A stretch of 53,789 nt of DNA, from positions 1 to 53,789 of the forward strand of contig WJJJ01000025.1 of NCBI GenBank assembly GCA_014729775.1, given 5' to 3'. Made by a program: the position numbers and the translations under genes. Numbering within the stretch: position 1 is the stretch's first letter; the number at the start of each line of letters is the position of its first letter. This stretch comes from Candidatus Omnitrophota bacterium. GTDB lineage: Bacteria; Omnitrophota; Gorgyraeia; Duberdicusellales; 4484-171. The notes beneath the pieces are model-generated. The model had not been told where the DNA came from and searched no databases. It saw nothing but the letters and a program-made list of their open reading frames with translations. Positions 6,757 to 9,279 of this stretch are shown one piece after another.

Positions 6757-6869
6757 GTCCTTGAGAGAGTGGCCTTCTCCGGCGACAATAATATGAAAAG
6801 GGGAAGTGTCCGCGAACGGCGGATCAAGAAAAAGAAGAGCACCCTACACCAGTGAATAAGGAGGGAAAA

Positions 6870-7457
6870 ATGAAAAGGGTTATGCAGATAACCGGGGTAT
6901 TGGCAATTTTCATGCTGCTATTTTCTTCTGACGGCAGCGCGCAGGTCAGTGAATCGTTCAACGTGGAAGCGACAATTCCCCGGCAGAATTCGTTCAACGT
7001 GACGATCACCCGGGTGGAAGGCAATACCACGAATACGACCAATGCAGTTGATTTCGGCAGGCTTACGTTCGATCCGCAGTTGAATATCTTTACCGCGGAC
7101 GCGTACTATTTCGTCGATATCGGCGTGGGCACCAACACGCCGCAATGGTCGTTGGAGCACGCGGTCACGCCGGTGCAGCGCGCCGGAGGCGAGGATACGC
7201 TGGACGACCACATTAACGTGGTGTTCGTCAAACAGCTGAGCGATATCGCGTCTGAACAGCTGAGCAAAGTGAGTTATGCCAACAGCGATGAGCACACATA
7301 TACCCGGGATCAGCTCTCCGGCGGGTGGCTGAGAGTGTTTTACGGAATCGGGACCGGTGACGATCAGGACGCGCCCGGAGTGAGCCCGGTCACGGTGGAG
7401 AAACCGTCCGGTGATTACGTCGGAGAAGTCACGATCACGCTGTTCAGTACGCAGTAA
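6870..7457 (+). CDS. Secreted beta-rich protein of unknown function
   Basis: 195 residues with a clear signal peptide: MKR, a hydrophobic core VMQITGVLAIFMLLF, then a cleavage region SDGSAQ. The mature part is Thr/Asn/Val-rich and beta-like: VEATIPRQNSFNVTITRV near the start, VDFGRLTFDPQ, YYFVDIGVGTNTPQWSLEHAV, FVKQLSDIASEQLSKVSYANS, GGWLRVFYGIGTGDD and a closing GDYVGEVTITLF. I recall similar proteins from uncultured bacteria, but no function. It could be a fimbrial, coat or surface subunit. The start follows AAGGAGGG. It converges with the minus-strand gene, whose stop is only six bases away and whose mature protein has a similar beginning. Confidence 0.8.
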   Translation: MKRVMQITGVLAIFMLLFSSDGSAQVSESFNVEATIPRQNSFNVTITRVEGNTTNTTNAVDFGRLTFDPQLNIFTADAYYFVDIGVGTNTPQWSLEHAVTPVQRAGGEDTLDDHINVVFVKQLSDIASEQLSKVSYANSDEHTYTRDQLSGGWLRVFYGIGTGDDQDAPGVSPVTVEKPSGDYVGEVTITLFSTQ

Positions 7458-7463
7458 CGGACG

Positions 7464-7715
7464 TTAATACTCGAGTACGATGGTGATGATTTCGTATTCG
7501 GGATCCTGATCCGGTGAGGATTCTTGCTTGGAGTCCTTGCCCTGCGGGGATTGATTCCCCTCGTGGGAATCCTGAGCCGTGGTGCGCAGGGTGCGGATCT
7601 TCGGTATGGTGGCGGAGACCGGGTAGACGGCACGCCGGCGGCCGTGGACTGAGCCTTGCGGGGACACGGTAAGAAAGAAGAGTACGCAGAATGTGCAAGC
7701 GACAATTCGGTTCAT
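7464..7715 (-). CDS. Small secreted protein, putative riboswitch target
   Basis: 83 residues and the only minus-strand gene in the window. It has a signal peptide (MNR, core IVACTFCVLFFLTV, cleavage region near GSVHG). The mature part starts VYPVSATIPKIRTLRTT, resembling VEATIPRQNSFNVTI of the 6870-7457 protein, followed by a polar Gln/Ser/Asp-rich stretch and a C-terminal EYEIITIVLEY. It may be a short relative of its neighbour that lacks the middle of the domain. The start codon sits two bases after a perfect terminator hairpin preceded by a cyclic-di-GMP-I-like aptamer. There is no clear Shine-Dalgarno outside the hairpin, which lowers certainty about translation. Confidence 0.65.
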   Translation of the reverse strand: MNRIVACTFCVLFFLTVSPQGSVHGRRRAVYPVSATIPKIRTLRTTAQDSHEGNQSPQGKDSKQESSPDQDPEYEIITIVLEY

Positions 7716-7717
7716 AA

Positions 7718-7745
7718 AAAAGCCCAGGGACCGTCCTGGGCTTTT
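7718..7745 (-). terminator. Perfect 11-bp terminator hairpin, riboswitch expression platform
   Basis: AAAAGCCCAGG (7718-7728) pairs with CCTGGGCTTTT (7735-7745) across a six-base loop. Read on the minus strand the stem is followed by six T and then the ATG of the small secreted gene, so it would attenuate that gene. Read on the plus strand it is followed by TTTTCTCTT and can end transcripts coming from 6870-7457. It therefore looks bidirectional, with the better T tract on the minus strand. Confidence 0.85.
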
Positions 7746-7751
7746 CTCTTC

Positions 7752-7838
7752 TCCCGGCGGTCCCTCATTCCCGTCAGCTGTGCTGCGGGACAGGTGACTT
7801 TGCGTCTTTCGATTACTCGAAAGTTGCCTTTTTCGGGA
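7752..7838 (-). promoter_or_regulatory. Cyclic-di-GMP-I (GEMM) riboswitch aptamer candidate
   Basis: On the minus strand, a closing helix UCCCG/CGGGA (7834-7838 with 7752-7756) encloses a GGCAA element (7824-7828). Next is hairpin P2, UUUCGA/UCGAAA, with GNRA loop GUAA (7807-7822), and then GACGCAAAGUC (7796-7806; family consensus GACGCAAAGCC). Hairpin P3 is UCCCG+CAGC/GCUG+CGGGA with a bulged A (7769-7790). The three-way layout, the GNRA-capped P2 and the two conserved strings match the GEMM-I family. Within 6 bases it runs into a terminator hairpin that abuts the ATG of a secreted protein, the usual arrangement of a transcriptional riboswitch. The 3' conserved segment (GAGGGACCGCC) fits less well. 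A cAMP-GMP (cGAMP) ligand is possible in this family. Confidence 0.82.
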
Positions 7839-7865
7839 TTTCTCCTTGTATGTGCTCCTGTTTCG

Positions 7866-7894
7866 AATGTACCATATTCTCGCTCAAAAAACAA
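7866..7894 (-). promoter_or_regulatory. Possible promoter of the riboswitch transcript
   Basis: On the minus strand TTGTTT (7894-7889), 17 bases, TACATT (7871-7866), placing the start about 20 bases ahead of the aptamer, with A/T-rich sequence upstream. The hexamers match only 3/6 and 4/6; position relative to the aptamer is the main support. It is back to back with the purB promoter. Confidence 0.4.
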
Positions 7895-7986: not shown

Positions 7987-9279
7987 ATGATCGAACGATA
8001 TACGCCCCCCGAAATAGGCGCATTGTGGAGTGACGAGGAAAAGTTTCAACGGTTCCTGCGTATTGAAAAGTATTTTCTGGAAGCGCAGGAGGCGCAGGGA
8101 CAGGTTCCCCGGGGAGTAAGCCGGGAATTCGACCGGGTGACACTTTCCGTTTCGCAGATCAGAAAACTGGAAGAAAAAACCCATCACGATATCGTTGCGT
8201 TCCTTCAGCACATCTCTCCCCAGCTTGAGAAAGCCGCTCCCTTTTTACACCGCGGGATGACGTCTTCGGATCTTCTCGATACCACCCTGGCCTGGCAATT
8301 GCGTGATGCCGCCCGGATTATCCTGCAAGAGCTCGACCGGGTCATCGAAGCGGCGGCCGCCCAGGCCCGGCGCTACAAGGATACCCTGTGCATTGCCCGT
8401 ACTCACGGGGTTCATGCCGATATGTATTGTTTCGGTCTCAAGTTTGCGTACGTGTACAGCGACCTGAAACGGGAACGGCGTTTACTGGAGGAGAGTCTGG
8501 AATATGTCGCTCAGGGAAAAATTTCCGGAGCAGTAGGGACATTCGCCTATTTCGGACCTGAAATTGAAGAATATATCTGCGGGAAAATCGGTATCGGATT
8601 CGCGCCCGTCTCCACTCAGATCGTATCCCGGGAGCGTTTCGCATATTTTCTTTCCATTCTGGCGCTCATCGGGGCAACGTTGGAAAGATTCGCTACCGAA
8701 ATCCGTCACCTTCAGCGCAATGAAGTGGCCGAAGCCAAGGAGCCGTTTTACCGGGGACAAAAAGGATCGAGCGCGATGCCCCACAAACAAAATCCGATTT
8801 CCTGCGAACGGTTGTGCGGACTAAGCCGGCTGCTGCGGGGAAATATGCTGACGGCATATGAAAACATCAACCTTTGGCATGAACGAGACATCTCTCATTC
8901 TTCAGCCGAACGGGTGATCCTTCCCGACGCCACAATTACCGTCGTCTACATGCTGAAGCTTGCATCCCGTATAATGAACGATCTCCATGTTGATTCCAAA
9001 AAGATGATGAAGAATATCGAACTCAACCGCGGGCTGATCTTTTCCCAGAAATTGCTTTTGCTGTTGATGGGGAAGGGCGTGGGAAGAATGGAGGCCTATG
9101 ACATCGTTCAGGAAATCTCGCTGCGGGTAATCAATGAGAGTTCTACTTTTCAGGCCGAGGTGAAGAAGGATGCCCGGGTAGCGGAGCTGGTATCCGAATC
9201 GGAACGGGATGAGATTTTCGATTCCTTTTCATACCTCACAAACGTGGATAATATTTACGCGCGGGTCGGCCTCACATAA
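7987..9279 (+). CDS. purB: Adenylosuccinate lyase
   Basis: Cleaves SAICAR to AICAR in IMP synthesis and adenylosuccinate to AMP. 430 residues, the normal length. It carries the fumarase/aspartase superfamily signature SSAMPHKQNP (about residues 261-270) and the short-form PurB N terminus MIERYTPPEIGALWSDE. TSSDLLDTTLAWQL and ARTHGVHAD are further family blocks, holding the substrate-binding Ser/Thr and an active-site His. First gene of the purine operon, about 20 bases downstream of its promoter. Confidence 0.97.
   Translation: MIERYTPPEIGALWSDEEKFQRFLRIEKYFLEAQEAQGQVPRGVSREFDRVTLSVSQIRKLEEKTHHDIVAFLQHISPQLEKAAPFLHRGMTSSDLLDTTLAWQLRDAARIILQELDRVIEAAAAQARRYKDTLCIARTHGVHADMYCFGLKFAYVYSDLKRERRLLEESLEYVAQGKISGAVGTFAYFGPEIEEYICGKIGIGFAPVSTQIVSRERFAYFLSILALIGATLERFATEIRHLQRNEVAEAKEPFYRGQKGSSAMPHKQNPISCERLCGLSRLLRGNMLTAYENINLWHERDISHSSAERVILPDATITVVYMLKLASRIMNDLHVDSKKMMKNIELNRGLIFSQKLLLLLMGKGVGRMEAYDIVQEISLRVINESSTFQAEVKKDARVAELVSESERDEIFDSFSYLTNVDNIYARVGLT

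Follow-up and report, generated by a model that had tools for sequence, protein, structure and literature searches.

The locus lies in a 53,789-nt stretch of DNA from a Candidatus Omnitrophota bacterium (GCA_014729775.1, contig WJJJ01000025.1), which we refer to in its entirety as the window. On the minus strand, a probable promoter read from the sequence (7866-7894; TTGTTT at 7894-7889, a 17-nt spacer with TGG, and TACATT at 7871-7866) is followed by a c-di-GMP-I (GEMM-I) aptamer (7753-7838), an intrinsic terminator (7716-7747) and a gene for a tiny, 83-aa exported protein (7464-7715). This gene converges with a plus-strand gene for a fibre-type subunit (6852-7457, with the start probably at 6870), only 6 nt separating the two stop codons, and on its other side the riboswitch is flanked by the divergently oriented purB (7987-9279, plus strand), which serves as a synteny marker. 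The promoter was not listed by a consensus scanner, which is stricter than reading by eye; promoter-like CTTGTTTTT...ATATGKTAYNNT is also found 5' of related riboswitches.

Riboswitch and expression platform

At gathering thresholds, RF01051 (c-di-GMP-I) is the sole Rfam match in the window, covering the model at full length (positions 1-87 of 87; 7838-7753, minus strand) with 49.7 bits against a cutoff of 35 and an E-value of 8.7e-7; our in-house model scores the same element at 72.5 bits. The GEMM-I class proposed in a preliminary description of this DNA is thus borne out, and the paired stems, conserved strings and terminator described there are all present: the unconstrained minimum free energy (MFE) fold of the RNA from 7838 to 7716 (-57.7 kcal/mol) holds P1 (UCCCG/CGGGA), P1a, a GUAA-capped P2 and P3, followed by the terminator, the GACGCAAAGUC string is located at 7806-7796, and the ligand contact positions are G20 (7828), A47 (7801) and C92 (7757). 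The covariation that would be expected of such stems is seen in the relatives as well. Among 11 aptamers 5' of related genes, pairing is kept in 96% of cells and 12 of the 19 pairs have changed on both sides (0 of 500 shuffles); for 26 further aptamers outside the model, whose alignment was fitted to it, the corresponding figures are 92% and 16 pairs. Two outcomes that the preliminary description named as refuting it, the lack of a significant RF01051 hit and of covariation, are thereby excluded. In two sets of aptamer matches at fibre-operon loci, G20, A47 and C92 are retained in 29 of 36 and 23 of 26, respectively. Judged by its sequence, the window aptamer adds a new member to an established class.

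The terminator had been described as an 11-bp hairpin touching the ATG; its U6 tract does end directly before the ATG at 7715, and the stem has 13 bp in the MFE fold (hairpin -17.9 kcal/mol). The 3' strand of P3, AGGGACCG (7758-7765), can form 8 perfect base pairs with CGGUCCCU within the terminator (7726-7733), a match whose length was equalled in 14 of 5000 shuffles. At nucleotide 113 of the transcript, the resulting antiterminator state is favoured over the aptamer state (-47.0 vs -39.2 kcal/mol), whereas from nucleotide 117 the terminator tips the balance and the aptamer state becomes the lower one, finally at -57.7 vs -50.7 kcal/mol. The terminator is compatible with the aptamer, and the antiterminator uses the aptamer's 3' strand, which is the layout of an OFF switch. 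Because of this overlap, a kinetic c-di-GMP OFF switch is predicted, in which the ligand would have to keep the aptamer folded for only a few nucleotides; the polarity in the cell would presumably be the same.

Related riboswitches vary in this respect. Across 110 riboswitch sites examined for terminator type, 30 have a terminator formed with the 3' strand of the aptamer itself and are expected to be ON switches (among them one, L082, whose detected hairpin falls inside the coding region), and 55 carry a separate terminator. In one relative (G001), a Shine-Dalgarno-like GAGG lies inside the aptamer P3 strand, which is an OFF layout too. That some clades have other platforms, so that polarity is deduced from a subset of layouts, counts against generalizing the OFF reading. 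In many relatives of the window gene, one aptamer is followed by terminators in tandem, whereas there is just one terminator in the window.

Unlike most of its relatives, the window ATG is not preceded by a Shine-Dalgarno sequence within 16 nt, which makes translation from it uncertain. A ribosome site bypassing the hairpin, with the Shine-Dalgarno sequence 5' of the terminator and the hairpin looped out, was considered; an SD-like GGAG precedes the hairpin at two loci (L006, L007) but not at a third (L055), and we do not claim it. At one of these, L007 (positions 1264-1420, on contig C19 of the window genome), a second riboswitch has the layout of the window one, with a similar promoter and a U-run touching the ATG; its target is a 384-aa exported protein, and AAAGGAG stands just 5' of the hairpin.

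The exported protein family and its fibre-type neighbours

The 83-aa protein consists of a signal peptide, a VSATIP segment, a linker and a C-terminal EIITIV strand. Searching with this single sequence gave no relative (best E-value 0.02), and the family was found only through the shared riboswitch context: genes behind other riboswitches encode tiny exported proteins of the same plan, in which a signal peptide and a YKVSVTIP-like strand are followed, after a polar linker, by a final strand resembling PIIVKTIVAK. An HMM built from 33 relatives, with the window protein left out, ranks the 83-aa ORF first of the 769 ORFs in the window (E-value 4e-4, 15.9 bits), a score reached by none of 1000 shuffles. 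The ORF is thus matched by the family HMM, stands behind a c-di-GMP-I riboswitch and converges with a fibre-type gene, although this neighbour is the subunit and not the usher-like gene found elsewhere. Signal peptide and both end strands are conserved in 34 sequences, and dN/dS values of 0.18-0.28 in four pairs (a fifth is saturated) indicate that the tiny proteins are under purifying selection. Neither the tiny protein nor the subunit has a match in Pfam or NCBIfam, and the structure model of the former contains only the signal helix, without a confident fold. The family is unnamed and has no domain, and both the family and the conserved convergent unit described below appear undescribed.

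In its complete form, the facing operon comprises genes for a tip-like protein, for a subunit of ~207 aa and for a chaperone-like protein; its last gene codes for an outer-membrane protein of ~1000 aa with T2SS-T3SS_pil_N and SdrD_B domains, which we label "usher-like" by its size and place. No usher or chaperone Pfam family was found in the operon proteins. Among chaperone-like proteins, the DUF916-type WxLIP domain is matched by one on contig C28 of the window genome (27.7 vs 27.3 bits), while the chaperones of the operons stay below the cutoff.

The usher-like protein occurs in 78 of 285 sampled genomes of the phylum. A scan for it with one genome per species gave 37 loci. Nearly all of these carry the label Omnitrophota, one carrying Planctomycetales and one Candidatus Elulimicrobium instead. 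In 35 of the 37, a tiny gene lies tail-to-tail with the usher-like gene, 33 being found by ORF scan and two (L233, L234) by HMM. The riboswitch is at the expected place with a strong score in 29 of the 37, weak in four (L213, L218, L223, L227) and cut by the contig end in one (L208). In line with this, the tiny gene was found tail-to-tail in 26 of 30 further loci, whose 3' flanks had been used for neither the family HMM nor the RNA model, and a c-di-GMP-I-type riboswitch lies on the opposite strand in 25 of these flanks, two of them below the cutoff. Tiny gene and fibre operon are never co-directional, and the gap between stop codons is at most 20 nt in 20 of 33 loci, four of which overlap. 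Two tiny-like matches occur away from ushers (G031:C84, G028:C87).

Going by gene order, the switch and the tiny protein form a unit that is kept across Omnitrophota and stands almost always tail-to-tail with fibre genes, an arrangement that suggests built-in on/off control of a surface fibre. Of the preliminary interpretation, the RNA class, the terminator platform and the secreted, surface-related target hold up, the last through the signal peptide and the fibre-operon context. The view of a one-gene unit of unknown family gives way to that of a gene 6 nt from a convergent fibre-type gene, within a unit conserved across the phylum; no named domain is indeed found, but the protein belongs to an unnamed family with at least 60 tail-to-tail relatives.

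The window carries a reduced version of the unit. Its gene at 6852-7457 (plus strand) is 37-39% identical to subunits of usher operons (E-values 6e-33 and 6e-41) and is the only such subunit gene in the genome. In this genome, which is 94% complete, we found no usher-like protein, only fragments of other proteins, and no close chaperone homologue, only a weak match on another contig. As purB adjoins the riboswitch in the window and in two relatives (G001, G024), orthology of the loci is supported, and the simplest history is that the genes between subunit and tiny gene were lost in the window genome.

Proposed control of the fibre and alternative readings

After the 83-aa ORF itself, the window sequence that the family HMM matches best is the N-terminal part of the convergent subunit (E-value 0.0015). 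In the structure model of the subunit (pLDDT 84.8), residues 1-40, which comprise the signal peptide and VSESFNVEATIPRQN, lie outside the β-sandwich. Fold matches of this model are weak, with only one below an E-value of 1e-3 and TM-scores of 0.3-0.42, and the top ten include Pyrodictium cannulae, the CFA/I chaperone-adhesin, TasA and the bundling pili of Pyrobaculum. Strand donation underlies the assembly of CFA/I and bundling-type pili. It also underlies that of TasA, to which TapA donates its N-terminus (PMC10151520). Given its resemblance to the flexible N-terminus of the subunit, the tiny protein may act on the fibre as a free donor strand, one that comes without a domain.

Building on the computed aptamer, antiterminator and terminator, the gene family and its conserved tail-to-tail linkage, we propose, with a probability of about 0.6, that the c-di-GMP-I riboswitch acts as an OFF switch at the level of transcription, and that its target is a tiny exported protein accessory to a surface fibre of the donor-strand type. 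As long as c-di-GMP is low, the antiterminator would form in the nascent RNA and the polymerase would read through. The tiny protein would then be translated, in the window from an ATG with no Shine-Dalgarno sequence close by, and exported; the transcript would continue antisense into the convergent fibre gene, with which it could interfere. At high c-di-GMP, the bound aptamer would keep its 3' strand, the terminator would form and both outputs would stop, leaving the fibre genes free. The protein might start, cap or block the fibre; with expression at low c-di-GMP, a role as inhibitor or cap would fit best. A layout touching on this is found in G024, where a GEMM-I riboswitch predicted to be ON, with a terminator competing with the aptamer (L097, G024:C65:9048-9156), heads the fibre operon and an OFF-type one with the tiny gene stands at its tail, as expected if c-di-GMP favours the fibre. 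Considerably more tentative is the extension of the mechanism to a phylum-wide c-di-GMP toggle, in which one riboswitch convergent to the fibre genes would, at low c-di-GMP, release both a free donor strand that caps or blocks the fibre and an antisense transcript, and c-di-GMP would shut off both.

As the stop codons are 6 nt apart and no minus-strand terminator was found in or just past the tiny gene of the window, read-through RNA must enter the fibre gene. The main output could then be the antisense transcript itself, which would block the convergent fibre operon through colliding polymerases or RNase III, with the tiny ORF secondary (an antisense-acting riboswitch or excludon). The strictly convergent orientation and short stop gaps across loci speak for this, and so does the position of the aptamer, whose 3' end (7753) is within the 500 nt of the convergent stop codon (7457) by which antisense-acting riboswitches have been delimited. 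Of all classes, c-di-GMP riboswitches have the strongest reported antisense tendency (PMC9943018), and precedents exist in Listeria pocR and Clostridium ubiG (PMC7154746), the only two cases known experimentally (PMC9943018, PMC7154746). The purifying selection on the tiny protein and the conservation of its signal peptide and end strands argue for a function of its own, however, and make a mainly antisense output doubtful; it is at the same time compatible with the OFF switch for an accessory protein rather than exclusive of it.

That no usher was found and that no Shine-Dalgarno sequence closely precedes the ATG also means that this copy could be decaying, which weighs against reading it as a working OFF switch. 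In the extreme, it would be a relic, with usher and chaperone lost and the tiny ORF no longer translated, to which the low family score of 15.9 bits could be added. We consider this improbable, as the aptamer, antiterminator, terminator and promoter-like sites are intact, and so are the open reading frame with its signal peptide and family residues and the subunit gene.

Least likely is a response to cGAMP or another dinucleotide instead of c-di-GMP: three other riboswitches of the window genome have A20 and some related loci are best matched by the c-di-GMP-I-GGC or -UAU variant models, but the window has G20, A47 and C92, and RF01051 alone is reported for it, as the best of its clan. The A at position 20 is the change associated with cGAMP-responsive GEMM-I (GEMM-Ib), and with a G there cGAMP is an unlikely ligand of the window aptamer. 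At least three strong GGDEF matches make c-di-GMP synthesis in the window genome plausible. The three riboswitches with A instead of G at position 20 (L001, L002 and L004, on contigs C18, C13 and C17) indicate that one genome may carry GEMM-I aptamers of both ligand types. Variant aptamers also occupy the same genomic position at four other loci (L241, L222, L211, L278), either best matched by c-di-GMP-I-UAU or with C or A at position 20, and the ligand may accordingly differ among lineages.

Related systems and further riboswitches

With known c-di-GMP-I riboswitches (RF01051), the window element shares the full-length match, three-way fold, GNRA loop of P2, G20/A47/C92 and terminator platform; it differs in its target, an unnamed tiny protein tail-to-tail with a fibre operon, and in that in this genome the terminator abuts the start codon. 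The Listeria B12 riboswitch of aspocR-pocR and the Clostridium S-box of ubiG (PMC7154746; survey in PMC9943018) likewise converge with a gene whose 3' end is no more than 500 nt away and which is spared when the ligand induces termination. Here, however, the riboswitch RNA is in addition the mRNA of an exported protein that is conserved, and the same arrangement is found again across a phylum. The closest precedent for the proposed role of the tiny protein is Bacillus subtilis TapA (PMC10151520), which is secreted as an accessory protein and supplies the β-sandwich fibre subunit TasA with a strand from its N-terminus; TasA is among our fold matches. TapA, however, possesses an Ig domain and is encoded within the operon, whereas the tiny protein is domain-less and its gene converges with the operon. 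Like the Omnitrophota operon, chaperone-usher pili and WxL/DUF916 clusters combine a subunit, a chaperone-like and a large outer-membrane protein, and the CFA/I chaperone-adhesin structure is among the fold matches, but no usher Pfam family is matched and the large protein is of the T2SS-T3SS_pil_N plus SdrD_B type. The tandem terminators of many relatives, as opposed to the single one of the window, recall the Bc1 c-di-GMP riboswitch of Bacillus thuringiensis with its two terminators (PMC11218506).

In the literature searched, whose coverage was incomplete, we found no publication combining c-di-GMP, riboswitch and Omnitroph*, so that novelty is likely but not proven; the conserved unit, in which a riboswitch controls an exported protein without a domain and the gene of this protein faces fibre genes, is likely a new variation on known principles. 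If the proposed mechanism holds, this antisense-acting riboswitch would be shared by dozens of genomes and would at the same time encode an exported protein that is itself conserved; it would also tie c-di-GMP directly, without a protein receptor, to a fibre system of Omnitrophota, a phylum known mostly from assembled genomes. A compact, donor-strand-like family without a domain would also make fibre capping or nucleation testable with short peptides.

The window genome has nine RF01051 matches above the cutoff and one weak match, and at least one c-di-GMP-I riboswitch is found in 32 of 37 genomes of its taxonomic family. Further arrangements include two tandem GEMM-I aptamers, each with its own terminator-like sequence (L003/L005, G000:C29:21618-21880, G000 being the window genome), and an ON-type GEMM-I (L162, G000:C28:42439 onwards) heading another operon, which codes for a small exported protein and for a chaperone-like one matching WxLIP_PGBD. 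Extra hairpins within the GACG/GCAAAG junction lower the Rfam scores of five aptamers (L188, L190, L007, L226, L227). Finally, a small gene like FLNRKELDFLDKISKDILFS often lies between the riboswitch and the gene of the tiny or another exported protein (L070, L080, L088, L105, L189, L190); its product is possibly a ribbon-helix-helix protein and is fused to PilZ in L072.
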